DNA from: Hydnum rufescens UP504
Taxonomy: Eukaryota; Basidiomycota; Agaricomycetes; Cantharellales; Hydnaceae
Direction: 5' to 3'
Length of the DNA: 64,000 bases
Assembly: GCA_014904985.1 (NCBI GenBank)
Contig: MU129019.1
Location: forward strand, 17,899-81,898
Part shown: positions 9,204 to 49,498 of the stretch, one piece after another
Numbering within the stretch: position 1 is the stretch's first letter
Layout of the letters: every line of letters begins with the position of its first letter
Made by a program: the position numbers and the translations under genes
Notes under the pieces: generated by a model
Database searches by the model: none
The model's input: the letters and a program-made list of their open reading frames with translations, nothing else
Told to the model about the DNA's origin: nothing

Positions 9204-9208
9204 ACCAT

Positions 9209-10165: not shown

Positions 10166-10169
10166 CAGT

Positions 10170-11759: not shown

Positions 11760-12028
11760 GATGGTGAACACTTTTAATTGCAGCCCCTTGCAATGCCCTT
11801 TGCCTTTCTTGACAGTCATACGATTGAGATCTGACCATGCCTCCTTGTGTAGAACCACCATGTCCATCCTTCAAACCAAAGCAAGATTTCTTGTGAGTTT
11901 ACATCTCGAATTTGGTGATAGAAGTCACTTATTGTTGGGTAAGGATCTTTAATATCCATGTTTTTAATAGTTTTTCCTTTGTATTATCCTAGGATTTTTA
12001 AGTGAATACCCACTTTGAATGGCATTGT

Positions 12029-16526: not shown

Positions 16527-17771
16527 CTATTTGGTCGCGCATATGGTATTTTTTAAGCGGTTTCCGGCGAATATTCCATTGATTGGGGTTCCATCTAATT
16601 CCGCTAGTTGATAGGATCCGCGGGGATGGTGATGCCGAACTCGGTATGGCCCAATCCACCGTATTTCCCCTTTTCGTCCATGTTGCATTTGTAATACGGA
16701 ATTGAATACTAGAACAATTGTACCGGCTTGATAATTTCCGTCTACCAACGTATTTTCATTTCGTCTGGCGTAATCTTGAGCACTTCGGATTCTTGCTTGA
16801 AGGACGTCATTTGAGGCGGCTTGAATATCTTCATCTCTATGCGCCAATTGGATCCCACGGATTCCTAATAATTCTTCCGTGGTTTGGATTGTTCCCCATT
16901 TTAATGTGTACCATGATGCGTCTGTAATGTCGAATGGAAACACGTGATTTATTCCGTAGAGTAGGTAATAGGGGGTGTGGCCGGTCGTTCGTTTTACCGT
17001 TACCCGGTCCGCCCACATGCATGAATAAAAATAGTTCGACCATTTACTTGGATTTCCTTTACATGCGACGAATAGCGAATTTATCCAAGTCCTGTGCCCG
17101 CGTTCTATCATACCATTTGCTTCCGGGTGATAAGGCGCAGCTCGGACAATTGGAACGTTGTATTCATCCGCCATTGTTTGGACTAATCCGTCAAATTCCG
17201 TTCCATTGTCCGTTGTGATTTGTAATACGCAGCCGAACCGGCACATGACGTCCTCAAATAGAAACTGGGCGACGTTTTTACTAGAGGCCTTACGTAACAT
17301 TTTTGCTTCCAGCCATCCGGAGAGATCGTCCCGGAGATCCACGATATATTTGAATCCGTTAGATACCGGCATATGGACCGTGTCCATATTAAATTTACGT
17401 AATATAGTGTTAACGTAGGTCGGGCTTAAAGTGATTTTTGGTCGGGTTGTGGATCTTAATTGGCACTCATGGCATGTCCGGCAATACCAGGCTACATAGG
17501 AAAGCATGTTTGGCCAAAAGAATCTATCGGATAATTTCTTGAAAGTCGGGTCTCGTCCACGGTGGCCTGATTCATCATGTGCTGCTTTACATAAGCGGGC
17601 TCGATCATCCGGGTTTTTAACAACTTTCAATGGCAATTGGCCATTCTTAGGTCTTCTCCACAGGGTTCCTTGATACATAAAATAGTGCTTGGTGGCCTGA
17701 ATGAATGTTTTGGTGTTCTTGACTCCTGGGGTATTTTTAAATGCTTTAAATAGAATTGAATTCTGTCCCAA
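16527..17771 (-). CDS. Ty3 integrase domain, open reading frame
   Basis: A 414-residue open frame. The zinc-binding H2C2 finger is visible as HDESGH (residues about 65-70) and CRTCHEC (about 97-103). The catalytic triad follows: Asp in FNMDTVHMP (about 129), Asp in TTDNGTEF (about 189) and Glu in HPEANGMIERG (about 226). The last two are about 36 residues apart, as expected for D,D(35)E. The C-terminal part has RWIGPYRV, a GPY/F module. Integrase inserts the cDNA copy into chromosomal DNA. All catalytic residues are present, and the stretch is CpG-rich with few signs of decay, unlike the RT upstream. The start shown is a frame entry, since integrase is normally part of a pol polyprotein; the RNase H frame ends just upstream by a frameshift near 17750. 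Confidence 0.9.
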   Translation of the reverse strand: MGQNSILFKAFKNTPGVKNTKTFIQATKHYFMYQGTLWRRPKNGQLPLKVVKNPDDRARLCKAAHDESGHRGRDPTFKKLSDRFFWPNMLSYVAWYCRTCHECQLRSTTRPKITLSPTYVNTILRKFNMDTVHMPVSNGFKYIVDLRDDLSGWLEAKMLRKASSKNVAQFLFEDVMCRFGCVLQITTDNGTEFDGLVQTMADEYNVPIVRAAPYHPEANGMIERGHRTWINSLFVACKGNPSKWSNYFYSCMWADRVTVKRTTGHTPYYLLYGINHVFPFDITDASWYTLKWGTIQTTEELLGIRGIQLAHRDEDIQAASNDVLQARIRSAQDYARRNENTLVDGNYQAGTIVLVFNSVLQMQHGRKGEIRWIGPYRVRHHHPRGSYQLAELDGTPINGIFAGNRLKNTICATK

Positions 17772-19550
17772 TAGTCTTTTCCATCAGAATCCTTGATTTT
17801 GTGTGGATGTTCTTTGATTTCTGAGTCAGTTTCTGGGTGTTGTGAGTGTTGGACTGTGAGTTCTGGGACTGTGAGTGCTGGGAGAGTGTCCTGAAATCTT
17901 TTTGAACTATTGGATGAGCTTGATATGAAAGAGCTACAAATCCTCCATTCCTAGTTGCATTTTCTTGTGGCCTAATTGAGAGTATTGTGTTATTTTGCCT
18001 GAATTCCATGATGTCTTCATAGGATTCCCTTTTGATTTTTGTTGTGGATAATATGGATGCTGAGGAACTGTGCAAGATCCAGTGTTCATATTCTTCAAGA
18101 GATCGTGGCCCAGTAATAAAATGGCCTGGTTCATCTGGTTCTAGTTCATCTTCTGAGTTGACTGAGTCATTTTCATGCGCTGGACGTCTGGATAATCCAT
18201 CTGGTCCTTGGTGTTTTGTTGCTGGAACATGGGATAATTCGAAATCAAATAGCTGAATATATGAAATCCATCGTGACATAGCCGCATTTGGTAATCCTGG
18301 TGTGTTGATAGTTTGCTTTAGAAATTTGGCATCAACTTCCACTTTGAAATGGATTCCCCAGAGGTCATTTCTTTGGGCTTTGAGTGCTTTGAATAGCCCC
18401 TTTAATTCGATTTGTGGTTGGGAATACTTGGTTTCAGCTTCGTTGTTGGTCACTGATCCAAAGACAATGGGGTGACGCCATCTTCCAAGGTTTGATATTC
18501 GATCCAGCCTACTGCAATGATGGAGCTGTCCACTGCAAGTGTTACAAGACCATAGTCCGAGGTTCGTTCGTCTTCTTTCGATACTCTGGCTATGTCAATG
18601 TTCAAGGATTTTCGAGCTGGGAGGTCTGTGGATGCTTCTTTTCAGCTGATTCATGGCTTCTTCAGCTTGATTGTTCCATTCAAATTCATTGGGAGTCTTC
18701 TTGGTGAGTAATGTGAGAGGTTTGGCTATCTTGGCAAATTGCCAAATCCAATTTCGAGCAACTCCAACTGTTCCTAGGAATCCACGGACCTGTGTCACAT
18801 TCGTTGGGCGAGGCCAGTTCTTTATTTTTGTGATGATTCCATGATGGGGTCTTCTTCCTTCCATAGAACATACATTTCCCACAATATGTATAAGTGGTGT
18901 AGCAAGTACGAGTTTTGATCCAGAGGCTGTACATCCGGCTTCAATGAAGGTGGCAAATAATTCATCAACAACCTGAGCGAATTCCCATATGTAACGTCGA
19001 ATCTTTGGGTTTTCAGGTATTGGTTCATCATTGTACCGCGTTTTTGGCCCTTTTCCAGCTACATCATCCACAAAGGCTTCAGCTTTGTCTGGAATCATAG
19101 GTCTAATCATATGTGTAACTGTTTTCATGATTCTTGCATAGAGTTTGTGTATCCTTGGGGTAATGTTGTGAGCTTTACAGGTCCCAGTGGTGAATCGCTT
19201 GTTGTGAGTTCCTGGGATTCTTCTGCTAGTCGTCGTCCATCATATCCTGCATAGAGATCTGCAACAATATAGACTGAGTGTCCTACAAAGCTGTCTGCGA
19301 AATCATTGATGTTTGGTGGTAACCCTGAGTCTTTAACAGAAACTGCGTTTAGGGGTTGCAAATCATGGACTATTCGAATGCCTCCTTTAGGTTTTGCTAC
19401 TGCGAACATTTGGGAACGATAAGAGGACCATGATGTTTCGTATTTTCCAGCTGCCAATTGATCTTTAATCATTTTGATAAGTGTTGCAACAATAGCTTTT
19501 GGTGGACGAATTGGAGGCAGTTCCCATGGAATGTGAGGGACTGTTTCCAT
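17746..19550 (-). pseudogene. Ty3 reverse transcriptase and RNase H, broken
   Basis: The RT fingers and palm appear as PKGGIRIVHDLQPLNAVSVKDSG (19.36 kb region), the first metal-site segment as VADLYAGYD, LPQGYTNS near 19155, and the active-site box as AFVDDVAGKGP (19070 region). PKIRRYIWEF and VRGFLGTVGVARNWI follow, then the RNase H with NEAETKYSQPQIELKGLF and HVPATKHQGPDGLSRRP. Frame breaks fall near 19125 and 18454-18594. This motif set is typical of the gypsy elements common in agaricomycetes. Enzymatic role: cDNA synthesis from the element RNA. CpG is sparse throughout. Confidence 0.85.
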
Positions 19551-21525: not shown

Positions 21526-23629
21526 ATGTCTGAATCAGATGACTCTGTGGTAGAGCTTGGCAGAAAGTGGAAGCACCAACAATCCAAAATGGTGGCCAAG
21601 TCTGGCAAGGCTAGAGCCCTTGAACCTCGAGTCAAAGGACTGGTCAAGAAACAAAAAAGACTGTCCAAGACAGCACAACAAAGAAACCATCATCAAAACC
21701 CTTTCATTCCTGCCAAATCCCCAAGTGGCTCCATCTCACCAGAAGAACTCAAAGATGACGGTGATGTGGCTTCTCAGACTATCTCATCTTCGGATTCCAA
21801 TCTCAAAGCCACATATGTGGATAAGCAGAAAGAAAAGGGAAAGGCTCGCCCAAAAGCCAAGGCACAAGGACTAACTACTCAAATGGATACTCTCAAGGAG
21901 AGCTTGGAGGAGAGGACTGACACAGAGGATGATCTTAGTAAGTACCTTGCGACAAGAGCATGGCCATAGAGTACTCACAAGGACTCCATGCCCTGCACAG
22001 TTAAAACTGTGGAAAAATGGACATCACTCGTCTATTCTTGTTATGGACAGGTGGTCATACAGATTGAAGAAGGACGAAAATACCAATTTTTCCCATGCCT
22101 CTCTTCTCCTTGCACATATGGAAACCGATGAGGTGTGTGGTGGTACTTGGATACGACTGATGCCACTTCAACCAAAAGCCTAAAAGACCATATCAATAAG
22201 TGCTGCCCTGGTCTTCTGGCAGGGGTCATGGCCAGGACTATTAAGGCCCCAAACTCAAATGCTGGGATGAAGGATGGGAGTATTTCTGCCGCATTCCATT
22301 GTGTGGGTGCAAAGGAGACATATTCAAACTGTCCTTACAGCAGAGTGGAAAGCAAGTTAGTGAGGCTACACTACCCTGGTTGGGGCACCCATTGAACTCA
22401 CATTTTTATTCTCAGGATCCAGCATGTTTTGTGGTGTGCTGAGGATTCACGGCCATACGGAGTTGTGGCCGATCATGGTTTCAATCACTTGATGAAGACG
22501 GGGAGAACTGGAACCTACATACCTTCCATTTCAACCCTCTCATGAGATGTTCGGCTTAACTTTAACCATGCTCAAGTGCACATGAAGAACCGCTTGATGG
22601 TACAGAAAAATCAATCTCTATGAGAAGTGAGCAGCTGATTTGTTCTAATTTCTAGCAATTTTCTGGCCACCTGAACTTTGGGACCGATGCTTGGTCCTCC
22701 CCTAATCATCAAGCCTTAGTGGCATTTACTGTACACTATGCATCTGAAGGAAAAGTCGAAAGTTTTCTGTTAGATGTTGTAGAGGTTGCCAAAGTACGTC
22801 CGTTGGTTTGACTGTGTGGAGGAACTCACCAAACGTACTTCCTGTGACCAGTCACACTCAGGCAAAAACCTCGCCAAGGCATTCCACAGTGTCCTTGTAG
22901 ACTTTGGAATTACTCATAAAGTATGTGTTCTCTTCATAATCCCCTTGACTACATCATGAAGCATGGTTGAACAGATTCTTGGTATTACATGTGATAATGC
23001 ATCTAATAACGACACAATGTGTGATGAGATGGCCAAATCTGCCAAATCCTTTGATTCATCCACATGTGTCTGATGCTTTGCACATATCATCAATCTCACT
23101 GCTCATACTCTCACTGCCCAATTTGATTCTGCTGCCAAAAAAGTCACGATGCATGCCAAGTCCAAAGGACCAAATCCATTCCCTGATGATGCCTTGACTA
23201 ATGACTCTATTGATTCAAGTGATGACAATGAAGATGGGGGGCCGGACACTTGCGATGGTGTCAGTCCTGAAAATATCTATCCTGATATGGCTGGTCTCAA
23301 AGACTGGGTAGACGATCTAGAGACAGTCTCCAAGGATGATTTGAAGATATTTGCAATGAGAACAGCACCTGTCCACAGTGTCCTTGTTAAGGTATGTCTC
23401 AATAGCCTTTCCTCGGCCTACTACTAACTATACTTCATTATGATACATAGATTCGCAAGTTAACTGTGGCCATTGCAACTTCAACAATGATTCTCCTTCC
23501 TCTCTGGCGGAAACTCTGCTGTAAACTTGTCAAGTCACCCAGCATGCTTGTCTGTGATGTTCGAACACAATGGAACTCGACAAACGACATGCTTGAATCT
23601 GCCCTCAAATTTCACTCTGTCATTGAAGC
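21526..23629 (+). pseudogene. hAT transposase, N-terminal half (BED finger and catalytic start)
   Basis: The leading exon (21526-21969) is a basic, Ser/Lys-rich tail. A BED-type zinc finger follows near 22080-22215, with FFPCLSSPC and YLDTTDATSTKSLKDHINKC. Then come FNHLMKTGRTGTYIPS (22.48 kb), TDAWSSPNHQALVAFTVHY (first catalytic Asp region, 22.69 kb), LLDVVEVAK, HKILGITCDNASNNDTM (second Asp, 22.98 kb) and CFAHIINLTA (23.08 kb), all hallmark hAT blocks. An intron at about 23392-23451 has CTACTAACT and ends CATAG. In-frame stops at 22543-22545 (STLS*DVRL) and 23071-23073 (TCV*CFAH) are TGA at arginine positions. The gene continues at 32165 beyond hAT-2 with the frame restored. Confidence 0.85.
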
Positions 23630-23699
23630 CAGGCTGGTCAGCCATATTTGATACCTATGATAGGTATCAAATTTGGGGCACTTTTTGGTACCTAAGTAG

Positions 23700-24700
23700 G
23701 TCCAATTGTGATGGGGTGCCATAGGGGTGCCAATTGATAATTCAATATCAGAGAATCAGCCCAAGTGGGGCCCAAATTGGGTATATGGGCCCCAATGTGG
23801 TGCCATGGGGCCCCAATGTGGCTCCAAAATGAACCCCTTCATAGTTTCCACACCACTGAGGCACTAATCCGCATTTATGTTTAATTATGTAATACCCAAA
23901 TGCGGAAAATGCAGAAAATAAGTACATCCACAGTGTCCCCAAGCCATCCAGCCCAATCCAGCAGCCGATCTTGTAGTATACATACATCAAATTGCATATG
24001 TTACCTTGGATATTTGTGCTTGAAAGGCTTACCATACAGTAACCATAAGTTATGGGATCATATATTATATGGGTGCATGATATATATTCCTACTGCCAAG
24101 CTGCTTTATAATCACCATCAGCAATGGCGGGATTTCCTTATTTGGAAATCACGTGTGCATACGAACTTGCACTTCATTCTGCATTCTAGCCTGCTACAGG
24201 GCTTTTTTTTGGATTCTAATTGGGTGGTTCAATACCCTGGATTTATCTCTATTTTTATGGTACAAAGAAGAGACTACAGAGGAAAGAATACAAAATTGAA
24301 TTTACAAAAAAAATATATATATATATTACACATGCCTGGTGCCTACAGGCACCGGGCACACGACTTGATAGGCGAGAATGTGGGAAAGATCCTAGGGGCC
24401 GATGCACACAAATTTTTGAGTGTATGGGTGCCCTGGCCCCTCCGTTGTTCTTGATTTTGTATGGGTGGTCCTGTTGTACCAGCCATGGCTGTGGCGGGTC
24501 CTAGGAGTGCAAATCATCAATGGCAAGGGTGATCCCGTCATTATGGGATCGCCCTTATCATCGGTCAGGGGAGGGACGAAGCTGGGGAATAACATTAATC
24601 CCTATGATGGAAATAATTCGTGTTGTTAGCATGAAATTTAAGCTGTGCGAACAGGGCTGCTTAAAGCTGCCCTATTCATGCTAAAAGGGAGGCGAGTTTG
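23700..24700. other. hAT-2 left subterminal region
   Basis: Repeated GGGCCCCAATGTGG motifs at 23770-23830 are mirrored near the right end (32020-32080, GGCCCCAATGAGGGCC), as expected for transposase-binding subterminal repeats. Further in there is an (AT)n tract at 24310-24330 and short inverted segments. No gene seen. Confidence 0.6.
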
Positions 24701-24718
24701 GGGAACTTAGCATATTAC

Positions 24719-25560
24719 TACACCCAGCAATGCTGGGGTGTGGTGGCTTGCTTATTGTGTGGGTAGTTTGTGTCTTCAGCTTCTTTGGTCATGCGGGTCA
24801 TGCAGGTCGTGCGGAGGTGCAGGGCGGTCACTCGTTCCCAATGACAATGGTGGGATTCCCAGTGTGGTCATTGGTTGAGGTGGGGGGGGCAGGCAAGATT
24901 GATCGTCCCTAAAATGAAAACAATCAAACGGTTAGTACATGATTAAAGCAGCACAAAAAAGGGCTGCCTTAGGCTGCCCTTGGTGCAAAATGAGACAAAG
25001 CAGGCATATACTTACCTTATTACCATACCCCAGCTTTGCTGTGGTTTCCAGTCTCGGGTGATTTATTGCCGGTTTCTCTAGTGGAGTGGGGTCATATGAC
25101 CCTGCAACTGTTTGTGATAATGGCCAGATCATCAGGTGGCAGTGCGAATGCGTTCATTTGAAGGGCATGAGGATGGTGGGCAGCAGTGATTCTGTAATGA
25201 GAGAATTGAAACCATTAGTAAAAAATAAAAGTCATAGAAAGAAGGCAGCTTAAAAGCTGCCCTCTATGCTACCTTATTGTCGCACCCCAGCAAGGCTAGG
25301 GTGTGGCAGTTTATTTACACCATGGGGTGGGTATCTTCAGTTGAGGTTGCACAAAACCATAGGATCTGTGATAGTCCATGAAAAGATGAAGGCATTGCTG
25401 CCGTGATCCTCATGTGACTCCAGTGAGTCGATGGTCAAAGCAAAGGTGCGGATACGGAAGAAATTTGAAAGGTCAGTTAAGAGTGATAAAAGGAGCAAGT
25501 TTAAACTCGCTCCTTGCACAAAGATACTTACCTCATCATGTCACTGGGGTGTAGATCGCG
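24719..25560 (-). repeat. Hairpin-intron module array M3 (CCCCAGC subfamily)
   Basis: Three modules on the minus strand with altered stem sequences. H1-type CACCCAGCAATGCTGGGGTG is near 24719-24740, with others at 25025-25047 and 25276-25310. H2-type AAGGGCTGCC/GGCTGCCCTT is near 24953-24986, AAGGCAGCTT/AAGCTGCCCTC near 25239-25268, and AGGAGCAAGTTTAAACTCGCTCCT near 25491-25516. Reverse donors ACTTACC occur at about 25011 and 25525, and TTAGTAC or TTAGTAAA blocks lie where the branch site is expected. Architecture is as in the other arrays with different arms. The array points toward the left end of hAT-2. Confidence 0.65.
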
Positions 25561-25787
25561 TGCTCCTTTGCGCGGATTATGGAATTGAAATTGGCGACGG
25601 ACAAAGCTGAAACTCAACGGCGGCACATGCCGGGTTCAAAAAACCCAAAGGGGAGCATGCCACAGGGTACTGTGACAGGGTCTATATGCAGACCAGTGCT
25701 AGGTGAATGATATTTTATTATTATTTTTCTGTGAAGATTCAGGGGGGAAGCAAGAATGAGCCAGATACCAAATAAGGCAATATATGG

Positions 25788-26702
25788 CAGGGGTTGGGGC
25801 AGTCTGTATGGATCAGAGTCATCCCAAGATTAAATATTATTATCCCATATATATACTACAAGATCCAGGCATGAAAATGGATGTCCAAACAATCCCAAAA
25901 TTTCCCAATCCTCATTTTTTATTTAGGCATATACAGTGAGTCTGACAGTCTGGAATTGTAGTTCTCTCAACTGTTTGGTAGTTGAATAGCATACTATACT
26001 TCATCTAATAGTTTCCCCTCTCCACAATGGCCCAGATATGTCCAGAGATGGCCAAGACTTGAATTTCCTTATTTGGGTAAGTGTATTTCCTCCTTTGTGC
26101 AGTCATAGCACAGTATTAGAGCCTAGGAAGCTGGGATTAGAATGTGATCTAGTCTGGCCACAAAATATAATTTTTTTCAGAATTTTTAAGACAAATAATA
26201 TGTCACGGGTTCCACATATCCAGAGTGGCTCTGATTCTGAGAATCAGAGCCACTCTGGATATGTGGAACCTGTGACATATTATTTGTCTTAAAAATTCTG
26301 AAAAGAATTATATTTTGTGGCCAGACTAGATCACATTCTAATCCCAGCTTCCTAGGCTCTAATACTGTGCTATGACTGCACAAAGGAGGAAATACACTTA
26401 CCCAAATAAGGAAATTCAAGTCTTGGCCATCTCTGGACATATCTGGGCCATTGTGGCATTGGAAAAATTCTCAGATAAAGTCTGGTGTGTTATTTAAGTA
26501 GGACACAGTTGAAAGAACCAAGCACTCACAAGGCCAGACTGTCGGGCTTAGTGCATATACTGTAACTTGGAAATAGGGGTTTGGGAAATTTTAAAATTGT
26601 TTTGATATCCATGTTAACATATCTACCTTGTAGATATATATGTGTTATCCCAATATTTTATTTTTGGGGCACCCTGATCCATACAGGCGACCCAAGCCCC
26701 TG
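25788..26702. mobile_element. Foldback (long inverted repeat) element centred at 26239
   Basis: Arms of about 220 bp around 26239 are nearly perfect inverted copies (about 26024-26455), with essentially no loop; they continue imperfectly outward to 25788 and 26702 (CAGGGGTTGGGGCAG against its counterpart CAGGGGCTTGGGTCG). Any transcript would fold into one long double-stranded RNA hairpin, a potential Dicer substrate. The same 84-residue peptide can be read on both strands simply because of the symmetry; it is not evidence of a gene. It sits between divergent arrays M3 and P2 in hAT-2. Confidence 0.8.
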
Positions 26703-26957
26703 TTCAGTGTCATAATGCATTGCCATATTTGGATTTTGCTCATTCTTGCCTTTTTCTTCCATATTATTATCGAAATAATTATCAAATATAACATAACACA
26801 CATTTCCTTTCATATATACACTTCCACAACACTCTGTGGTGTCTTTCTGCCCGGGGTTCCGCGCTTTTTTGAATCCAGAGCCTGCTGGCATTGAGTCTCG
26901 GCTTCACCCGACAGCCATATCGGGGATACTGCGAGCAAGCGCCCAAATGAGGTGCAC

Positions 26958-29045
26958 CACACCACACCCCAGCTGTGCTGGGGTGTGGTGATGAGGTAAG
27001 TAATTTTTTTGTTTATGATTTCTTCCAGAGGGAGCGGCTTTAAGCTGCTCCTCTGGGTGGGTTTAATTTTGTACTCATAACTTTTCTCACCGTAGAGTTG
27101 ATTGCCGTCGCCCGTACCCCCGCCATCTCAAAAAATGATGCCGATCCGGCTATGACATGATGACAACGATCCCCTCATTGTCGTTATGAGCATTTCGGGG
27201 TTCTGTAGCCCATACGCCCGAACAAGGCAAAACGCGAGACTACGGACAGTATAAACGAGGCACCACCTCCAGCAATGCTGGGGGGTGGTGATAAGATAAG
27301 TCCCATTATTTATTCGTGCAACAAGGGCAGCTTTAAGCTGCCCTTTTTGTGTTGCTTAATGGTTTTACTAACAATCCAAATTATCTTCATTGTAGATACT
27401 ATCGCTACCCCCCGCGACCCACCTTGAATGGTGGCGATGGTCCCGTTGTCACCATTATGACAAATCGCGGGTTCTGTCACCCGCACAACCGACCAACATG
27501 AAGAACGGGACCAAGGACGACATAAACCGGACACCACACCCCAGCATCGCTGGGGTGTGGTGACAAGGTAAGTATTACTGCTCCTGCACGAGGGGGCTAG
27601 CTTGTGGCCTGCTGTCAGGGCCACGCTGCGACGAGAGCACCAAACAAATATAAACACAGATAATTCCGGCTAAGTCCGGTGTAAGTCCGGCTAAGTCCGA
27701 GAGAATCCGGGCAGGAATGAGATAACGAAGATAGGAGGGGACGGAGAGGCAATCCAGCAGCCCGGAAGGGACTAGGCGGAAACGAGCACAGCGGTCCTTA
27801 AGCTCGCGGAGTCAACTGGAAAATACTCGGACCTGTAGTCCGGAGTAACAGCGGAAATCCTGAGATTATGTAATACGAATACGGAATACATGAAGGCTGA
27901 CCTGTAGTCCGGAGTAACAGCGGAAATCCTGAGAGACCAAAGCTGGGGTCTCTGGACTTCGCTCTCGGACTACTTATACATGATGACTATACTACGGGGG
28001 AGTGATCGCTAAACTGGAGGTGGTTACAAGGGGGACAGGAACAGGAACAGGAACAGGAACAGGAACTCGGCCAGGAGGTGAACCGGAAGCAATGGGAAAT
28101 GAAAGGGAAATGAAAAGGAAATGAAACCAAGATAGGGTTGGACCGGAGTCAAACCGGAATCAAGCCGGAAGCAAAGTGGACTTGGGCGAGGGAAATAAGT
28201 GGAGAACCAGACTGGAGGTGGGCGGACGAGGACCGGAGTTGACCGGAGTAGACCGGAGTAGACCGGAGTTGGGGGCGAACCCTGACACCTGCCTCCTTTG
28301 CGCTGCTTTAAGCTCTTACTAATAATTCTCTATTTTCCTTATAGGGACACTTGCTATCATCCCCCTACCCCTCTCGCGCCCCAAACAACGACGGCGACAT
28401 TTGTTGTTGTTGTCGTCAGCGATTTCAACTATTATCGCTGGCACATAACCGAACAACAGGAAGAGTGTGACCGAGGACGCCACCACACACAGGACACCAC
28501 ACCCCAGGATCACTGGGGTGTGGTGAACAGGTACTTATTTTCTTACTTGCACAAAGGGAAGCTTTAAGCTGCCCTTTCTGTGTTCCCACAATTTCTTAAT
28601 ACGAATTATCTTCATTCTAGACCCTATCCCCGTGCACCCTCCATTGTAACTGACGGCGATGATGCACCCACGGCGGTACCGTGGCTCCCCCATCACGATT
28701 ACGAATCGCTGCGGATCTTGTGACCGCATACCACCTGAGAATACCGCAACCCAAACCAGGAAGGTGGGAACAAACCTTCGATGTCCACTAAGGAGCACAC
28801 CACACCCCAGCATTGCTGGGGTGTGGTGATAAGGTAAGTATTTTATCTGTTACTGTTATGCGAAAGGGCGGCTTGGAGCCGCCCTTTCGCATACTTGAAT
28901 GTTTTACTAATCAGCCTCTTGGATTACAGCCTGTTGGTCTGGCCCAACCCCTCTCCCACGTGTCAAATGACGACGACAATTACCCATCGTCATCTCAGAC
29001 CTCGAACTCTGCGAGTGGCCAAAGCCCCAACAGCCGGTACTAATG
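26958..29045 (+). repeat. Hairpin-intron module array P2 (CCCCAGC subfamily)
   Basis: Five modules. H1 occurs at about 26961-26990, 27262-27290, 27532-27560, 28493-28525 and 28797-28828, built on CACCCCAGC...GCTGGGGTG. The donor GTAAGTA follows four of them within 10 nt. H2 is at 27032-27058, 27320-27349, 28551-28584 and 28859-28891; the last is AAAGGGCGGC/GCCGCCCTTT. Acceptors: TTGTAG near 27398, TTCTAG near 28620, TTACAG near 28927. The third intron is interrupted by the solo LTR at 27613-28287. Spacers contain recurring ACGGCGATG and CGGACACCAC segments and no open frame. Confidence 0.7.
27613..28287. mobile_element. 675-bp solo LTR with 5-bp TSD inside an array intron
   Basis: Begins TGTCAGGGCCACGC and ends GGGCGAACCCTGACA, with TG...CA termini as short inverted repeats. 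CCTGC lies directly on both sides (27608-27612, 28288-28292), a perfect 5-bp TSD. Inside are a duplicated 28-nt segment (GTCCGGAGTAACAGCGGAAA... near 27839 and 27908), ACAGGA repeats near 28038 and GACCGGAGT repeats near 28230. It belongs to an LTR family unrelated to the Ty3 element here. It lies between the donor and branch site of the third P2 intron. Confidence 0.85.
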
Positions 29046-29149
29046 AAGTACCAGCACACAATTGCGATTAATGGGTGAATGAGTGAGCCCATGCACATGA
29101 AATGTTGTGTGCGCGGGCTCTTAGGACTCCTCCCCCTGTTTCACTGATC

Positions 29150-31990
29150 AGATCATGTGCCCATTGCCTGTAGGAAACCCCGCCCGACAAGAAAACAGGC
29201 GACATATGGATCTGCGCAGCCACCTGAAATCCCTGTCCCTAGGCACCCACAACTTCCGTGATGAATCAAACACGGTGCCACACACCCGCTTCAGCAGGTG
29301 TGTGGCAATATTAGGTGAGTTTTTTTTCATTATGGGGTGTACCACAATGCCAAAAGAGCAGCACCAGCTGCTCTTTTGGCATTGCCTTCGGTTTTTTTTC
29401 CCTTACTAACGTATTATTATTCTAGGTACCTAGACGAAATACAAATGTGCACAACCATATAAGAGCCCAACCCCCGAACCTACATGACAACACATCGAAT
29501 ACAGGACCACACCCACTGTGGCAGGTATGGTGTTACCTTGTAAGTTTTTATAGCATATACGGTGCCAAAGGAGCAGCAGTAGCTGCTCTTTGGTGCTGCT
29601 TTTGTTTTTTTGTTTTTTTTTTTGCTTTACTAACATTATCCTGTCTCCCTGCACGAAGCCTCACACAACGAGAAACGGCCCCGGCCCAATACGAAATCCG
29701 GACATGCGCAGCCAAGCAACTACACGATCCGAGAGCCCAGCCCCCGACACCTGCATACATGCTGGATAAAATATAGCACCACATACCTGCTGCGGCACAT
29801 CTAATCCCAAATTATACAACAGTGCCAAAAGAGCAGCAGAAGCTGCTCTTTTGGCACCCCTCTGCTTTCTTTTTGTTACTAATGTATTATTATTCATTAT
29901 TATAGGTCTCTTCCCTACATGAAAACCCACCCGACAAGGACATCGATGAGCTGCCAGCACAAAATTTGATGCGCAGCTGCCCAAGCCCTGAGTATCTGGC
30001 CCCCAAACATGACAACTAACTAAATCTGCACCCGACAGAACACCCAAACGAAAAACCCCAAACAGTGGAATGAAAAGAAGATACCACAATGTAAGCTAAG
30101 TTTTTTTTTTGTCAGAATACCTTAAGTGGGGCAAAAAGAGCAGGCCACCCTGCTCTTTCCTGCTGACATTGATTTTTAACTGATATTCCTTTTATTATCA
30201 TAGTTCATCACCCCCGACCTGAGCAAACACCCGCATGAATGCCAATATGAAAACCCAAATGAATAGCCATACGAAAACCTAAGTGAATGGCCGTAGCGAA
30301 ACCCACAAGAATGCTGATACCGAAACCCGCAAGAACACCGGTATTTAAACCTGCAAAAACGCCCGTACGAACGGCGCATAAATGTCCAGGTGGGCAGGTA
30401 CCACAGCGCCAAAAGAGCAGCAGAAGCTGCTCTTTTGGCGCTGCCTCTTGTTTTTTTTAACTAATGTATTATTCCTTATTGTAGATTGCCTCCACCCACA
30501 TGAAAATCCGCCCGATGAGAAGACAAATGACACCCCCACGAAGTTTCGATGCACAGCCACCGAACACTGCCTGAGCACCCAGCACCCCAACCCCCGCAAC
30601 CTGCGCGATGAGAGGTCAAGCATGATACCACACACCCGCTGCAGCGGGTGTGTGGTAATATTAGGTGTGTCTAATCCCAAACTATACAATGGCACCAAAA
30701 GAGCAGCAGAAGCTGCTCTTTTGGTGCCACTCTGGTTTGTTTGTTTTACTAATATATCATTATTCGTTATTCTAGGTCTCCCAACGTGAAAACCTGCCTG
30801 ACGAGGACACAGACCAGCCCCCAGCATGAAATTCAATGCACAGCCGCCCAAGCCCTGAGTGCCTGGCCCCCAAACATGACGATCGACTAAATCTGCACCC
30901 CAAAGGACACCCAAACGAAAAACCCCAAATGGTGGAACAAAAAGAAGATACCACAACATAAGCTAAGTTTTTGTTTGTCAGAATACCTAAAGTGGCGCAA
31001 AAAGAGCAGGCCACCCTGCTCTTTCCTGCTGCCATTGATTTCTAACTGATATTTCTTTTATTATCGTAGTTCATCACCCCTGATCCGAGCAAACGCCCAC
31101 ATGAACGCGCATATGAAAACCTGAACGAACAGCCATATGAAAACCCGAGCGAACGGCCATAGTGAAACCCACAAGAATGCTGATACCAAAACCCGCCGGT
31201 ATTTAAACCTGCGAGAATGCCCATACGAACGGCGCATAGATGTCCAGGTGGGCAGGTACCACAGCACCAAAAGAGCAGCAGAAGCGCCAAAAGAGCAGCA
31301 GAAGCTGCTCTTTTGGCGCTGCCTCTTGTTTTTTTTAACTAACGTGTTACTCCTTATTGTAGATTGCCCCCACCCACACGAAAATCCACCCGATGAGAAG
31401 ACAAACGATGTCCCCACAAAGTTTCGATGCACAGCCGCCGAACACTGCCCGATCGCACAGCACCCCAACCCCTGCAACCTACGCGAGGTCAAGCACGATA
31501 CCACACCCGCTGCGGTGGGTGTGGCAATATCTGGTAAGTTAATAAGATCTCCCACCCCAACATGCAAACCTATGCAGCCATAAGTCCAAACGCAAGTACA
31601 CCAATGAAAACATGCGAACAAATGCATGGGGACGGGCATACGAAGCCACGGACGAAAAATAACGAGCCATACCCGCTGCGGTGGTGTGGTAATTTTTCAG
31701 GTAAGTGTATGTCTGTGTCCGACCATGCAAAAGGAGCAGCACAGGCTGCTCCTTTTGCATGGGTTTTCTTTTCTTTTTCTCTTTACTAACACAGTACTTT
31801 ATTAATGTAGATTCTTATTGAGCCCACCACCCACATGAACCCCCAAGCAAATCCTGGATGATCAAAACACGCAACCACAAATGAAGCAACCTGCAACCCG
31901 CCGACCGAACACCAGTAAGAATGGGGTGTGTGGCCCCGCCAGGTGGCAGCAGGGCATAAGATGTATATAATAATAATAAATAAATCAATC
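29150..31990 (+). repeat. Hairpin-intron module array P3 (largest and best preserved)
   Basis: About nine modules. H2 palindromes lie near 29347, 29563, 29822, 30133, 30408, 30692, 30994, 31263 (duplicated) and 31723. Full H1s lie near 29277 and 30628, with shorter ones at 29502, 31498 and 31668. Branch/acceptor pairs include TTACTAACGTATTATTATTCTAG (29402-29425). A higher-order repeat of about 870 bp is visible: spacer 29906-30080 matches 30776-30950, and 30175-30380 matches 31048-31250. The latter spacers consist of imperfect 24-bp units around GAAAACCC and GAATGCC. The array ends in a spacer running into ATAATAATAATAAATAAATC near 31965-31985 (AATAAA present). CpG in H1 is largely intact. 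Confidence 0.75.
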
Positions 31991-32156
31991 TGTGATCTAG
32001 CACTGGAAGTTGGCCCAATAAGGCCCCAATGAGGGCCCAAACCACAACCAAAGTGGTGGACTGGGGCCCCAATAGTGTCTGGTACCTACTTAGGTACCAA
32101 ATCATGCCCCAGAATAGATACCTAAGAAGGGGGTCACATACGGCTGTCCAAGGTGA
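31991..32156. other. hAT-2 right subterminal region and TIR
   Basis: Contains GGCCCCAAT repeats, the inner palindrome GGTACCTACTTAGGTACC (32083-32100) and the TIR ending GGTG at 32156. It mirrors the left end. Confidence 0.7.
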
Positions 32157-32164
32157 TTGAAGCT

Positions 32165-33323
32165 ATGACTCAAAATCGTGAAAACAGACTTCATGAATTC
32201 GAGCTTTTGGATGAAGACTGGGACATTATTACCCAACTCAAGGATGTTCTCAAGGTTTTATCTTGCACCTGTTTATTCTCACTTTTAAATTACTGATACT
32301 AGTATCAACAGATATTCAAACAAGCAACACTTCTTTTCTCTGTCAAAGACACTCCAAACCTTGCCAATGTGATTCCAGTAATGGATTCTATTGATAGTGC
32401 CCTTTCACTCAGTAACACCGAAAAGAAATACAATGATTCAATCTGTCTCAGTGTTTCCCTTGCTCGACAGACACTAAACCGCTACTACAGTAAAACAGAC
32501 ACTTCTGATACATACCAAGTTGCCATGTGTACGTCCTCTCTACCCATATCATTTATCTATGAACTGATATGAAGATTATCCATAGTGCTTCACCCAAGAT
32601 ACAAATCTGTGTACTGGAAGGAACACGATTGGGAGACTAAATGGATTGCCATTGGGATCAAGATTGCGCATAGGATATATGACTTGCCCAAGTATGCCAC
32701 CACTCCTGATGCCCGCATGATCCTCTTCCTCAACAACCATATCCTGCTGTCAACTCTGGGTCTTTGAATAACCCCCAGGTGTGTGGTCCCAGAGATATAT
32801 CTGCACAATTATCTGAAAATGTTTCTCACAGGCTAAAGCTCGCCTCTTTTTCAAGAACTTGACTGCCAAGCCAAGTATTCTGTCACAAACAACGAAGAAT
32901 GAATTGGACTTCTACCTTACAATGCCACCTGAGTACACTACTGACCCAATTCAGTGGTGGTGGGATCACCGGTCCTCCTACCCTCACCTTTCACATATGG
33001 CAATGGATTATCTATCAATCCCCAGTATGATTCTGTCTCATCTAAGATTTATCTTCCTAATTCTGACCAACCCAATAGCTACATCAGTGGATGTGGAACA
33101 TGTGTTTAGCCGAGGATGAATTCTTGTTTCACATCTTCGAAATAGATTAGCCCCAGCTTCAATCTGTGCTCTTCTGTGCCTAGGATCTTGGAGTTGTGCA
33201 GACCTACTTCTGGCCTCAGACCTTCAAGAAATAGCAAAGCTTCCAGACCTTAATGGTAGTGTGGAGACTGATATTGACATTAATGATCTTGGAGGTGGTG
33301 GGGCTCATGACATTAGCACCTAG
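32165..33323 (+). pseudogene. hAT transposase, C-terminal half with dimerisation region
   Basis: Continues the transposase after hAT-2: MTQNRENRLHEFELLDEDWD, then exons separated by short introns (about 32250-32310, 32528-32584 and 32768-32830). LHPRYKSVYW (32.59 kb), WWDHRSSYPHLSHMAMDYL (32.95 kb) and the dimerisation signature SVDVEHVFSRG*ILVSHLRNRLAP (33.09-33.15 kb) are classic for fungal BED-hAT transposases. The stop at 33117-33119 is TGA in place of arginine. It then ends acidic, LNGSVETDIDINDLGGGGAHDIST. Role: cut-and-paste mobilisation of hAT elements through TIR binding; this copy is defective. Confidence 0.85.
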
Positions 33324-38230: not shown

Positions 38231-38431
38231 CATTTAAAAAATGATATAATCTGTATTCTCATGAGATAACCACATTGATTATGCCAAACTGAAATGCATT
38301 TCATCAAGGTATTTTAAATGGAAATTCATATTAGAATAGCATTTGGGACTCTGGGGCCAATACACTTGTGTCTGAGGATGTCAAATTCAGATGTGGAATC
38401 AAGACAATTCTCCCCATATGCACTCTACAGA

Positions 38432-38606
38432 ATACACCCCCCCTGCTAATACACCCCCCCTGCTAATACACCCCCCCTGCTAATACACCCCCCTGCTAAT
38501 ACACCCCCCTGCTAATACACCCCCCTGCTAATACACCCCCCCTGCTAATACACCCCCCTGCTAATACACCCCCCCTGCTAATACACCCCCCCTGCTAATA
38601 CACCCC
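38432..38606. repeat. Minisatellite CTGCTAATACACCCCCC, 16-18 bp unit
   Basis: About eleven near-identical copies differing mainly in the length of the C run. Confidence 0.9.
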
Positions 38607-39830
38607 CCCCTTGTTGGTAACACCCCCTCCCTTGCTGGTAATACCCCCCCCTTATTGGTAACGCCCCCCTTCCCTTCCTGGTAATCCCCCACCCCCTTAT
38701 TGGTAACACTCCCCCTCCCTTCCTGGTATCCCCCCCCCTATTGGTAACACTCCCCCTTCCCTTCCTGGTAATCCCCACCCCCTTATTGGTAACACTCCCT
38801 CCCTTCCTGGTAATCCCCCCCCCCTTATTGGTAACACTCCCCTTCCCTTCCTGGTAATCCCCCCCCCTTATGGTAAACATCCCCTTCCTTCCTGGTAATC
38901 CCCCCCTTATTGGTAACACTCCCCTTCCCTTCCTGGTAATACCTCCCCACCCTTATTGGTACCACCCCCCTCCCTTATTGGGTACCACCCCCTTCCCTTC
39001 CTGGTAACACCCCCCTCCCTTCCTGGTAACACCCCCCCCCCCTATTGGCAACCCCCCCTTCCTTCCTGGTAATACCTCCCCCACCCTTATTGGTACCACC
39101 CCCCCTTCCCTTATTGGTACCACCCCCCCTTCCCTTCCTGGTAACACCCCCCTCCCTTCCTGGTAACACCCCCCTCCCTTCCTGGTAACACCCCCTCCCT
39201 TCCTGGTAACACCCCCCCCCCCTTATTGGCAACACTCCCCCTTCCCTTCCTGGTAATACCTCCCCCCCCCCTGCTGGCAACAACCCCCCCTTGTTGGTAA
39301 CTCCCCCTTCCCTTCCTGGTAATACCCCCCCCTATTGGCAACACTCCCCCTTCCCTTCCTGGTAATACCTCCCCCCCCCTGCTGGCAACAACCCCCCCTT
39401 GTTGGTAACACCCCCCTTTATTGGTACCACCCCCCCTTCCCTTCCTGGTAATACCTCCCCCCCCTGCTGGCAACAACCCCCCCTTCCTTTATTGGTACCA
39501 CCCCCCCTTCCCTTCCTGGTAATACCCCACCCCCCCTGCTGGCAACAACCCCCCCTTGTTGGTAATACCCCCCCTTCCTTTATTGGTACCACCCCCCTTC
39601 CCTTCCTGGGAATACCCCCCCCTATTGGCAACACCCCTTTCCCTTCCTGGTAATACTCCCCCCCTGCTGGCAACAACCCCCCTTGTTGGTAACACTCCCC
39701 CTTCCCTTCCTGGTAATACCTCCCCCCCCCCTGCTGGCAACAACCCCCCCTTGTTGGTAACACCCCCCTGGTAATACCCCCCCTTCCTGGTAATACCCCC
39801 TTCTGGAGTTACCAACCTCCCCTAACAAAC
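38607..39830. repeat. C-rich minisatellite, 1.2 kb (CCTTCCTGGTAAYACCCCCCC family)
   Basis: Units of roughly 20-40 bp made of TTGGTAACACCCCC, CCTTCCCTTCCTGGTAATACC and CTGCTGGCAACAACC in changing order. The minus strand carries dense G5-G9 runs and would favour G-quadruplexes. All open frames here (Gly- or Pro-rich repeats) are artefacts of the repeat. Confidence 0.9.
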
Positions 39831-44905: not shown

Positions 44906-44944
44906 TTATTGAAGTGAGAATTATCCCTGTAAGGACCACCAGTT

Positions 44945-46579
44945 ATAGAAGAAGGGTTGGGAGCTCCGATGACTGTCAAATCAAAATCTGGTTCAGCCAG
45001 TGTGTAGATAGGAGACTGTGTTTCTGTTTATTCAAATGGGTTGGTTCACTTCAATGGTTGATCACTCTCTGCAAGATATGTATGTGTTTATTGGAGAATG
45101 GAATGTGATATGGACTAGCAATAGTCAATGATATATCGTAGATGCTTATAGAAAGGCTTATACATCGTATGGAATGCTTATAGAAAGGCTTATATGTGGA
45201 GGATGCTTATGGAAAGGCTTATACATGTTCATATTGTGTTTGTTCATTTACTGATATTTGTGTGTCCTTGTTTATGTCCTCCTAGTCAAAATGCGGATAT
45301 CTGTGGGCTATAGAATGGTCAGTGCTTGGTTAGTTTGGTTAGTATGCTTCAATCTTCTTTCCTGACTTGTATTTACCTTTTCCTTGGATGTCCAGCAACT
45401 CTAACCTTAGGTTCTGCAACTATCCTTGGCTTCAGTATTTCTTGTAGATGGCTTCCAGTAGCTTGGTCTCAACAACCTTGAAGATGACTTAGCTCCAGAT
45501 GGCTTTAGATAGACAGTTCTTTAGATATTAAGCAGAATGGTAGACAGTAGTTGACAGTGGTTGATCTCCAGAGTGAGGAGATGGGGGGGAACAAGAAAAT
45601 CTGCTAGCTTATATACCTATCTGAAGGTGGCTGTGCATGGAGCAAGAACAAAAGAGTAATAAAGCTATGAGATCATAGTGATGTCATGGGGGAGTCATAG
45701 TGGAGTAGAACAAAAGAGTAATAAAGAAATGATGTCATAATGCGGTCATAGCTGAGTCATCCATAGAGTGTGATGTCATAGTGATGTCATTCATAAAGAG
45801 AACAAAAGGATTCATAAAGGAAATGATGTCACTAGTTTGCTGAGCTTGTGGAGTGGTTGGAGCATGATGTCACTGGTCTTGTGATGTGTTTTGGGGCTCA
45901 TGGGAAGCGAAATTAAGGGACATCTCTGGGTTCTGGAGATTAATCTGAGCATAGTCCAGTGGTTAAGGTGTTTTTTGTTACTGGTTAATAAAAGGAACAA
46001 GTGCATGGTATGGGATTCAATGCAGAGACAGCAGTTTGCATCCGTAATAGGCGTGCTTGGTACCATTCGATGCGGATTTTTAACAGCTTTCTGGGCGTGG
46101 TGGTTCCGAGCAGATCGGATGTGAACTGATAGAGAAATTCGTTTTTTACTGATGGGTGTTGATTCTGATAGTAATATCATTCTGTAGAGTTCAATTTTGA
46201 TCTGTTCTTCACGTGCTCAGTACCGTTGGATGCGGATTTTGTATATCTTTCTAGACGCGGTTGTTCCGAGAGGATTAAATGCAAACTGACAGAGGTATTC
46301 ATTTTTTACTGGAAATCCTGGATTTTAATAGTAAAATTGGCCTGGAGAGTGCAGTTTTGGTCTGTTCAACTTGTGTTTGGTACCATTCGAAAGGTGTGAA
46401 TAGTAGCTTTCTAAGCGTTATATGGGCGTACCTCTCCGATCAAAACTGATGGAGTTATAAAACGAATTTGGTTTCTGTGCATAGCCGTAATTAATCTCAT
46501 AATCAGTCATGTGATCATCCAATGTCTGGAAGTTGTGTAATTTCGCATTTTCTGATACTGGATGTTTTTATCTTCCACA
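44945..46579 (-). repeat. 5' LTR of the split Ty3 element
   Basis: Minus-strand LTR from TGTGGAAGAT (46579) to CTTCTTCTAT (44945). It is 45 bp longer than the 3' LTR because of an additional GGAATGCTTATAGAAAGGCTT-type repeat near 45170-45215. It carries a likely TATA box (see separate entry) and three 155-bp units at about 46050-46460. Confidence 0.85.
45600..45625 (-). promoter_or_regulatory. Putative TATA box of the Ty3 5' LTR
   Basis: GGTATATAAGCTAGC on the minus strand within the 5' LTR. The equivalent is kept in the other LTRs (GGTATAAAAGC at about 8596, GGTATATAAGC at about 10802 and 50175), which supports function as the core promoter for element transcription. The start site is not determinable. 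Confidence 0.55.
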
Positions 46580-46589
46580 ATGGTTGTGC

Positions 46590-46955
46590 ATTCAGTGTTG
46601 CATCTGGGGGTGGTCATCATTTGGGTGGGCAGTTGGCTGTGTGGGTTTCTGTTCTCATGTGTTTCTTTGGTGGGGTTGTGGGTCTCAATTTGGGGGTTGG
46701 TGGGGTTTGCAGGCTGAGGTCCTAGGAATAAACAATATGTTAGTAAAAGAGAGAGAAAAAAGAAGAAAAGCCACCCAAAAGGAGCAGCATACACTGCTCC
46801 TTTTGGGTGGTTGTACTTACCTTAAATTACCACACACCCACTGAAGTGGGTGCATGGTTCCATCTGGGGTTTTGTCTGGCTGGTTGTTGTTGGCAGGTTT
46901 TGTTTGGCAAGGGTTGTTTCCAGGGGGGGTTCATTCAGCAGTGTAGAAGATGCTT
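46590..46955 (-). repeat. Hairpin-intron array M4 (one module)
   Basis: H2 at 46772-46806 (CACCCAAAAGGAGCAGC arms), H1 at 46829-46853, reverse donor CTTACCTT at about 46816 and reverse branch/acceptor CCTAGGAATAAACAATATGTTAGTAAAA at about 46724. The flank 46660-46730 matches 9215-9300, so this is the continuation of array M2 interrupted by the Ty3 insertion. Confidence 0.65.
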
Positions 46956-47769
46956 TATAGCTCTGCAGAAATTACTAACACCACCAGATGTTGGCTAAGG
47001 TTACAGGGATTGGGAATGAAAAGGTATGGGATGGGCTCAGGTTCTCTCAATGAGTTGATTGGCTTACTAGGTATAGAAATGATATGGGTGACTCTGATAT
47101 GACATAATGTTTCTGACTCTAGCTGGACTACTTGTATCACAATTGTTGAATTGAAACTTAGAAGCTAATTCTGATTTTAAAACTTTTATGGGCTTGAACC
47201 TATTATCATATGATTCAGGGCTTAGATGTCTAGCAGCACCTACACTGAGGGTCCTACAACTATCTACAACTTCTTGTTGTTGCTCTGAGTATGCCTTTCA
47301 GTTACTTGGCCACTTGAATTCCTTGTCTGTAACTACTTTATTTCGAGGGGAGTCTTATCTAAAAGCTCCCTAAAACTACAAAATTTGATTCCTTATATGT
47401 ATTTTTGGATGTCTGTGTACTTTTCTGCACCAAAGTCTGTGTGATGTTTGGAATGGCACAGTTGTGGGACATTTGGATGACTACATCAGGCTGAGTCATA
47501 TCTTTTGCTTAGTCATACAAATAGCTTTGTCATACTTTTGAGTCCGGGTTTTTGATTACAAATCTTGGTTACATAAGCATATTTTTTGACCTGTAGAAAA
47601 CTTTATTTTGTTTGTCAAATGGAGTTATTTCAACTGAGTTTCCTTGATATCTTGGGGCTGTAGCAAGATAAGGTTGTCCTAAACACTCCAACAGATCATT
47701 GATTGAGGTCTAAGGTCAGAGCACATCCAAACTTGCATTTTCAAATACTAGACAGTTATTCCTCCCACA
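46956..47769. other. Unassigned spacer within the M4-M5 array
   Basis: AT-richer and without module hairpins. Short open frames (46955-47140 minus, 47188-47373 plus) match nothing known. Probably an insertion into the array, but no TIR or TSD is evident. Confidence 0.4.
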
Positions 47770-48705
47770 GCAGGTCATCATCTTGCTTGACAACCTAGGA
47801 TAGTAAATATGTTAGTAAAAAAAGAAGAAGAGCCATGCAAAAGGAGCAGCATACACTGCTCCTTCTGCATGGTTGTACTTACCTTAAAATTACCACACAC
47901 CTGCTTCAGCAGGTGTGTGGTTTGTCTGGGGCCCCTGCAGCCTTGTGTCTTGCATTCCTGTTCCTGGGTTTCGTCTGGCACTTGTTCTTGGCATGTTGCA
48001 TTTGGGTCTCTCATTTGGCAGGTGCATTGTCATTTCCCAGGGAGGGGGTCCATTTGGTGTGTAGTTCAGGCAATAGCCTAGAATAATAAATTATTCATTA
48101 GTTGAAAATTAAAACAGGTGCAAAAAGAGCAGCCAGGGCTGCTCTTTTTGTGCTGGCACAGGTGTACAATGTACTTACATTATATTGAACCACACACCCA
48201 CTGCAGCAGGTGTGTGGTTCATGTCACCACCTCTTGCACCTTTGTTTGGCAGGGTTTTGTTTGCCATGGTGGTGTGTGGGCCCTAGCAGGTTGGGCCTCT
48301 GTGTTGGACCTGGGACAAGGTCATAATAAGAGTTGTTAGTAAAGAAATTAAAAGCAATGCAAAAAGAGCAGCTTTCACTGCTCTTTTTGTGCTACTGTAT
48401 CTACTGGGGAAAGAAACTCACCTTAAATCCCACACACCTGCTGTGGCAGGTGTGTGGTTCCTGGGGTCACTCATTGGGTGGTCTGTCATTTATTTGGTTT
48501 GGTTCTTGCCATCTGGGCCCTCATCATGTGGTGGGTTCTCGTCTTGGGCCTTGGACCATAATCTGAAATAATAAAAACTACATTAGTATAACAATTCAAA
48601 GCAGTGCAAAAAGAGTAGCTTCACTACTCTTTTTGCACCATTGTACCTACTAGAATGAAAACTTACCTTATGACCACACACCTGCAGCAGTGGGTGTGTG
48701 GTCAT
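47770..48705 (-). repeat. Hairpin-intron module array M5
   Basis: Four modules, H2 at 47837-47870, 48119-48152, 48357-48390 and 48603-48638; H1 at 47893-47920, 48189-48217, 48430-48457 and 48674-48701. Reverse donors ACTTACCTTA occur beside the first and last H1, and CTAG(G/A)ATA...TTAGT blocks precede each H2 on the listing. H1 stems read CACACCTGC/GCAGGTGTG where P3 has CACACCCGC/GCGGGTGTG. A foldback element follows at 48786, paralleling the M3-foldback order in hAT-2. Confidence 0.7.
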
Positions 48706-48785
48706 GGGGTCATGTGGCCACAGGGTCATGTGGCTGCAGGGTCATGTGGCTGCCTTTCTGTTGCTGGGTGTGGCTGTGTAGTTGT

Positions 48786-49432: not shown

Positions 49433-49498
49433 ATCTACATCTCCACTACCACATCAGGCAACAGACAGGAAAGGCAAGCACATGACCATACACCCACT

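Follow-up and report, generated by a model that had tools for sequence, protein, structure and literature searches.

Tandem intron-like hairpin modules inside candidate hAT-like, apparently non-autonomous DNA transposons of Hydnum rufescens

Introners reach high copy numbers, carry donor, branch site, and acceptor along with them, and insert singly into genes; some algal introners have terminal inverted repeats (TIRs) and target site duplications (TSDs), according to a survey of introners (PMC9860276). Non-autonomous hAT transposons and miniature inverted-repeat transposable elements (MITEs) combine short CA...TG TIRs and 8-bp TSDs with many copies and no recognized transposase gene. Target duplications of 8 bp are likewise made by Zisupton (KDZ) elements (PMC12730594), Helentrons bear satellite arrays, i.e., tandem repeats on a non-autonomous mobile element (PMC7492417), and fungi of the Hypoxylaceae contain stwintrons, which are repeated, symmetrical spliceosomal introns nested within genes (PMC8469720). 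Here, we analyzed a stretch of 64,000 nt (the window; contig MU129019.1, positions 17,899 to 81,898) from Hydnum rufescens UP504, a member of the Cantharellales that is ectomycorrhizal (PMC7550596) and has a genome of 63.19 Mb in 539 contigs. The window contains tandem arrays of exon–intron-like modules, and at least some of these arrays form the inside of DNA transposons, among them an element that we call E1 (Table 1). Like non-autonomous hAT transposons and MITEs, these elements have many copies, 8-bp TSDs, short CA...TG termini common to the copies, and no recognized transposase gene; unlike them, they are long (4.6–8.5 kb, four cases), contain intron-like arrays, and usually have a central palindrome. 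Whereas introners insert singly, the introns described here are arrayed between non-coding exons within another transposon. The likeness to Zisupton is one of TSD length, and no large open reading frame (ORF) was found inside the elements. Exon–intron modules are not mentioned in the available text on the Helentron-borne arrays, and the stwintrons lie nested within genes, whereas the modules described here stand in tandem in a transposon. We found no description of tandem exon–intron modules inside a DNA transposon in the open literature as far as it was accessible, subscription papers and repeat databases being outside the search, and the main text of the introner survey, as available, mentions neither Hydnum nor tandem or noncoding arrangements. 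The modules may represent a new and unusual payload of a non-autonomous DNA transposon; it is possible that they are already catalogued as a repeat whose anatomy was not stated.

All parts of a module follow a common order, i.e., an exon linker, a palindrome (H1), a donor, a second palindrome (H2), a run of T, an ACTAAY branch site, and a YAG acceptor. A sequence-only reading of the window had proposed this order for about 36 modules, and it was confirmed across about 37. A profile search yielded 43 non-overlapping hits, partly antisense partials; after exclusion of the latter by hand, we counted 37 modules, or 38 including one interrupted by an insertion at 27532. Modules occupy two stretches on the plus strand (640–1905 and 26960–31990) and five on the minus strand (Table 1). 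The module that the earlier reading had worked out as an example was reproduced to the nucleotide. In the stretch emphasized there (29150–31990), the module order is present (e.g., 29276–29425), but several modules lack a part as read from the sequence: no acceptor stands behind the branch site at 29627, the module at 29776 is without an intact H1 or donor, and no H2 follows the H1 at 31502.

The proposal that each module consists of an exon and an intron with a central hairpin is supported at the level of sequence, as donor, branch site, and acceptor agree with the U2-type consensus at correct spacing, and both splice signals and pairing are conserved. We reduced 204 full modules to 119 non-redundant ones and aligned them. 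The G and T of the donor were conserved in 92% and 96%, the ACTAA of the branch site in 91–96%, and the A and G of the acceptor in 98% and 97% of modules, with the remaining intron columns outside H2 ranging from 34 to 93%; conservation of the splice signals is thus close to that of the hairpin cores. Long-term conservation of the splice signals is clear. Splice-site rules parsed 169 of the 204 modules (the other 35 were excluded), giving a median intron of 107 nt and, for 97 internal exons, a median of 170 nt. When introns were sought from H1 sites, 136 with donor, branch site, and acceptor were obtained, eight of them called as lacking H2. Two of these calls are clear (window 795–840, and a 40-nt intron at locus L023) and retain every splice signal, three are misreadings that end inside H2, and three are longer.

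That the splice-like motifs might be no more frequent than chance had been raised together with the original proposal, and we found them far above permuted controls. Within 261 kb, GTRAG followed H1 in 72 of 106 H1–H2 pairs (median 2.5 for 60 permuted donor motifs), and ACTAAY stood behind H2 in 156 among 181 palindromes (median 7 for 120 permuted branch motifs). Genome-wide, the exact H2 core GAGCAG-N6-CTGCTC occurred 5,941 times and the reversed pattern six times. The core with ACTAAY 12–42 nt behind it gave 4,763 matches (2,363 + 2,400, a few palindromes being counted on both strands), compared to 522 with the permuted branch motif ATACAY and none with the reversed control. An H1 end and H2 at proper spacing were found 3,265 times, and the same pattern with GTRAG 4–14 nt past H1, at slightly wider spacing, 1,901 times. 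The exact core undercounts, because it finds 21 modules in the window where we counted 37; from it, we estimate at least about 6,000 intron-like modules of about 277 nt each, amounting to about 1.6 Mb or 2.6% of the genome.

Both palindromes preserve pairing across the alignment. For H2, 1,791 of 1,884 alignment cells pair (95.1%) and 168 are changed on both sides (shuffles: mean 68, maximum 95), with pair 78–105 being C-G in 77 modules and A-T in 32. For H1, the corresponding values are 1,396 of 1,495 (93.4%) and 76 (shuffles: mean 43, maximum 59); some of the two-sided changes, chiefly in H1, fall on CpG sites and may be decay. All five modules that were folded reached z-values between −7.2 and −10.5, and no shuffle out of 200 was equally stable; for 29275–29424, z was −8.55. 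In one family of four copies, 0 of 172 non-CpG columns of H2 varied (p 0.0009 versus exons); the exons varied at 38 of 863 such columns, the remainder of the intron at 12 of 352, and H1 at 5 of 154. Among the CpG columns of exons, 106 of 158 varied. No Rfam 15 family matched the window or loci L012, L017, and L022 at gathering scores, and a known RNA family was rejected for these four sequences.

The module array had been regarded as an independent tandem element. This view was abandoned, since at least four of the arrays examined sit between terminal repeats with target duplications, so that the arrays are the inside of DNA transposons; the earlier reading had noted neither these ends nor the frequent divergence of arrays from a central palindrome. 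We fetched 20 further loci of the genome (labels beginning with L) as the best matches to one E1 module and compared them all-against-all, together with the window. Four elements, E1 and those at L020, L022, and L024, have an 8-bp duplication and related TIRs of the type CAGGCTGGTCAGCC or CAAACCAGTCAGCC, plus partner ends. We counted 238 genomic matches to the TIR core CTGGTCAGCCAYA and one to its reversed control. Homology between E1 and L009 starts or stops at the two ends of E1, and a sharp left boundary is common to L011, L016, L020, L022, and L024; the group of L015, L017, and L021 shares one end, the other not being identified within the fetched DNA. Among the further pairs from the TIR/TSD scan, L016 3505, L017 832, and window 45636 are without the TIR motif and look like chance, and the fourth is the palindrome at window 48808–49404 itself. 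We detected no ORF of ≥ 220 aa inside the L016, L020, L022, and L024 elements and none of > 211 aa in E1, where shorter ORFs were not domain-searched and an intron-split gene could escape detection; for want of a large ORF, the elements appear non-autonomous. We call them hAT-like from their ends and duplication only. E1 adjoins a piece of the hAT dimerization domain PF05699 (window 32901–33038), and by our reading its insertion site lies inside a hAT transposase gene, for which a scan for a surrounding TIR/TSD pair found none. At L009, two E1-type ends (492 and 7422) occur at one locus, and outside each of them the sequence looks like a module's donor region (GGTAAGTA), so that splice donors of other arrays may be insertion sites of the elements.

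Many loci have a divergent layout. In E1 and nine of the 20 loci (L012 twice, L016, L017, L019, L020, L021, L022, L024, and L025), two divergent arrays are separated by a palindrome whose arms measure ≥ 60 nt; such a palindrome adjoins one array at L011 (where the fetched DNA ends), at L015, and at one place in the window (Table 1). Among the first 100 listed of the 4,763 matches to H2 and ACTAAY, neighbors within 3 kb were on the same strand in 63 cases, divergent in 10, and convergent in 3. By eye, nine of 12 inspected palindromes look alike: CCAAT stands 127–128 nt from the center in all nine, also at 103–104 in eight and at 44 in seven, and a strict TATA motif lies near 68–73 in three, with TATA-like runs in the remainder. 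The second L012 palindrome and that of L019 retain only the outer part. The central palindrome may be a bidirectional promoter. Homogenization of its arms within an element was considered and found no support, as identity was 0.945–0.973 within and 0.941–0.982 (mean 0.96) between five elements. Downstream of arrays with at least two modules, a strict AATAAA-rich tail motif was found within 700 nt at 17 of 46, whereas none of the 46 had it on the opposite side and its density would predict about two; a tail that ends most arrays, as first suspected, was dropped on this count.

Our preferred reading, held with moderate confidence, is that the elements are non-autonomous hAT-like DNA transposons with divergent, spliced, non-coding RNA units. 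Four elements have defined ends and TSDs, many loci are divergent in layout, splice signals and pairing are conserved, and the exons have no frame bias. The elements would move by cut and paste, in trans, through a transposase encoded elsewhere. As payload, they would carry two divergent non-coding transcription units, each with its start within or close to the central palindrome, an outward course across the exon–intron modules, and an end at the AATAAA-rich tail, with the ordinary spliceosome removing each intron of about 107 nt. H2 could fold the stretch from donor to branch site so that a long intron acts like a short one, and each exon of about 170 nt would close with an H1 hairpin shortly ahead of the donor. 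A likely benefit would be that a densely spliced, gene-like transcript evades the silencing of unspliced or badly spliced transposon RNA. In Cryptococcus, stalled spliceosomes are reportedly linked to small-RNA production against transposons. In human cells, introns reportedly protect against HUSH silencing. Intronless elements are silenced by HUSH in these cells (PMC8770142). Efficiently spliced transposon RNA could exploit such silencing rules. More tentatively, and with rather less confidence than doubt, one may think of an element class selected for its product, a non-coding RNA that is spliced, beaded with hairpins, and transcribed both ways from a palindromic promoter. Such an element would maintain thousands of functional introns because it persists via splicing or via an H1-beaded RNA acting on its behalf.

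Several observations weigh against the preferred reading. As the 20 loci were picked as best matches to a single E1 module, they form a non-random sample whose local densities do not equal genome averages. In nine of them, no such palindrome was seen close to the arrays (an insertion splits the arms at L023), the E1 palindrome differs from the others and contains neither a CCAAT nor a TATA match, and the strict tail is absent within 700 nt downstream of 26 of the 46 arrays, three more being cut off. L016 has both ends and no 8-bp duplication (four of five elements with both ends identified have the duplication), the 8-bp duplications would also fit Zisupton, and a comparison by eye of 90 PF05699 places with 100 of the 238 TIR places gave no convincing pair of a transposase with the same TIRs. 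Open frames in the 97 exons numbered 52, compared to 33.4 (sd 5.2) in mononucleotide shuffles. Within the four-copy family, 1 of 86 splice-signal columns varied (p 0.12 versus exons, 0.24 versus introns), a non-significant difference that lends no support to recent selection on the splice signals there. A search for reverse-transcribed spliced copies with one junction pattern found none, since its eight matches all have one mismatch and are, by our reading, intron-donor variants. Furthermore, the heavy mutation of CpG sites points to present or past methylation of many copies, which speaks against an efficient escape from silencing.

Alternatively, the arrays could be satellite-like filler that expanded by unequal crossing-over inside a transposon, with splice signals as idle relics of an old host gene or intron and hairpins that are maintained by the copying or conversion of palindromes. 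Such an origin would account for the variable length of the tandem arrays, the near-perfect palindromes, and the strong CpG decay; we nevertheless consider it rather unlikely, because donor, branch site, and acceptor are conserved over 119 divergent modules while other intron positions outside H2 drift, both clear introns without H2 retain all splice signals, and the hairpins covary, including C-G to A-T changes. The same hairpins could make the elements a source of hairpin RNA: Dicer would process H1, H2, and the central palindrome into small RNAs that act on the elements or on host genes, and splicing would do no more than release the hairpins. The stable folding of H1 and H2 as stems in all five modules agrees with this, a long palindrome would give long double-stranded RNA if read through, and at 25 non-CpG pairs G-U exceeds A-C by 77 to 50 (p 0.01), as expected under selection on the RNA of the splicing strand. 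G-U-type changes are not favored by the exon background. The excess lends weak support to such selection, as the rows are not independent and the ratio is 78 to 81 at the four CpG pairs; the stems are also short for Dicer substrates by general knowledge, and we regard this explanation as improbable.

In the genome annotation, some arrays appear as protein-coding repeat genes (BS47DRAFT_1367127, BS47DRAFT_1360993, and others). Seven annotated proteins, all from Hydnum, resemble translated spliced exons (six found by one query, one by another), and almost all of one of them (P0026) is contained in L030 as exact pieces. Mapped to the DNA, both P0026 and P0032 use several predicted module acceptors and donors, and the excess of open frames over shuffles would also suit coding exons. 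Against this, 55 of the 97 exons have no open frame at all and multiples of three are not preferred among their lengths (remainder 0, 1, and 2 in 24, 39, and 34 exons), in line with the earlier suggestion that the exons are non-coding; the two mapped models dodge stops through a 22-nt intron and donors inside H1, and two protein searches gave no relative beyond Hydnum rufescens. Protein-coding exons were rejected for the missing frame bias, despite the excess of open frames, and a coding function is highly improbable. The models P0026 (L030, contig C192) and P0032 (L017, contig C42) are probably spurious; the array models look ab initio by our reading, where a gene finder would see introns and actual splicing would be another matter. 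We give equally little credence to introner-like elements, in which each module would be an intron-generating transposon seen in arrays by happenstance. The introns bring their own splice sites and inverted repeats and have a very high copy number, but the modules stand in arrays, and the mobile unit, where definable, is the whole element. Introners had been named as the nearest concept, with the reservation that they are dispersed and not tandem, and we agree: each of the 54 H2-core palindromes listed for spacing, which all come from contig C1, lies no more than 600 bp from another, though solo copies may occur elsewhere in the genome.

Table 1. Positions of modules, arrays, and elements (window coordinates unless a locus is named).
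Feature	Position	Strand	Basis or remarks
Element E1, 8,526 bp	23630–32155		TIR/TSD scan; TIR, minus modules, central palindrome, plus array, tail, TIR
TSD of E1, left copy	23622–23629		ATTGAAGC, perfect 8 bp
TSD of E1, right copy	32156–32163		ATTGAAGC, perfect 8 bp
Left TIR of E1	23630–23655	+	CAGGCTGGTCAGCCATATTTG...; end comparison and TIR scan
Right TIR of E1	32130–32155	-	inward reading CACCTTGGACAGCCGTATGTG...; end comparison and TIR scan
Minus arm of E1, decayed modules	24601–25545	-	24601–24744, 24909–25037 (profile); ~25190–25310, 25470–25545 (reading)
Central palindrome of E1	26022–26456		217-nt arms, 99% complementary, between divergent arms
Plus array of E1, 14–15 modules (own count)	26960–31810	+	profile and reading
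Complete module	29276–29425	+	H1 29276–29307, donor 29315, H2 29345–29384, branch 29404–29410, acceptor 29425
Complete module	30626–30775	+	H1 30626–30657, donor 30665, H2 30690–30729, branch 30748, acceptor 30775
Last module of E1 plus array	31668–31810	+	donor 31701, H2 31723–31762, branch 31785, acceptor 31810
AATAAA-rich tail past last exon, polyadenylation-like	31958–31985	+	motif
Element at L020	L020 1882–8082		8-bp duplication AATGTCAC
Element at L022	L022 2284–7095		8-bp duplication TTCTTTTG
Element at L024	L024 2327–6922		8-bp duplication GATAGTGC
Stretch with minus-strand module 144–277	1–290	-	divergent from array 640–1905
Module array	640–1905	+	profile and reading; tail 1879–1905
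H2-less 46-nt intron	795–840	+	GTAAGT, TACTAAT, CTAG retained
Worked module	996–1139	+	H1 996–1027, donor GTGAGT 1035–1040, H2 1067–1098, TACTAAC 1117–1123, acceptor end 1139; folding z −8.53
Array, 4 modules	9206–10166	-	flanked on both sides by 1.6-kb repeat copies
Array, 5 modules	46588–48800	-	profile hits
Palindrome adjoining array 46588–48800	48931–49288		resembles central palindromes of other loci
Array, 7 modules	56130–58073	-	profile hits

Regarding other features of the window, copies of a 1.6-kb repeat, probably the long terminal repeat of a gypsy-type retrotransposon with integrase and RNase H domains in ORFs at 16527–18594, abut module arrays (7635–9205, 10166–11765, 44935–46584, and 49495–51120). 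At L009 3105–4667, one such copy interrupts an H1 palindrome that belongs to an E1-like array. An insertion with 10-bp repeats lies within an intron of E1 (27574–28290), and a piece 96% similar to it is found at L028 7485–8157. The ratio of observed to expected CpG was 0.04 in the array at 46588–48800, a sign of strong CpG-site decay, 0.14 and 0.21 in two other arrays, and 0.59 in E1. A long C-rich tandem repeat with units near 17, 22, and 43 bp spans 38431–39800. Between two divergent arrays, a broken UDP-glucose dehydrogenase fragment is located at 301–616 (PF03721, E 1e-5, under its cut-off; PF00984, E 1e-6). By eye, the annotated protein P0029 contains a similar piece, so this capture may be amplified.

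On this reading of the sequence, thousands of intron-like modules in the genome of H. rufescens would belong mostly to transposons and not to genes. If they are spliced, they would be a natural test case for the protection of transposons from silencing by introns, they would place a measurable load on the spliceosome, and they could supply new introns and shuffled exons, for which the UDP-glucose dehydrogenase fragment between two arrays may be compared. The module arrays may also account for a group of annotated gene models that are probably spurious.

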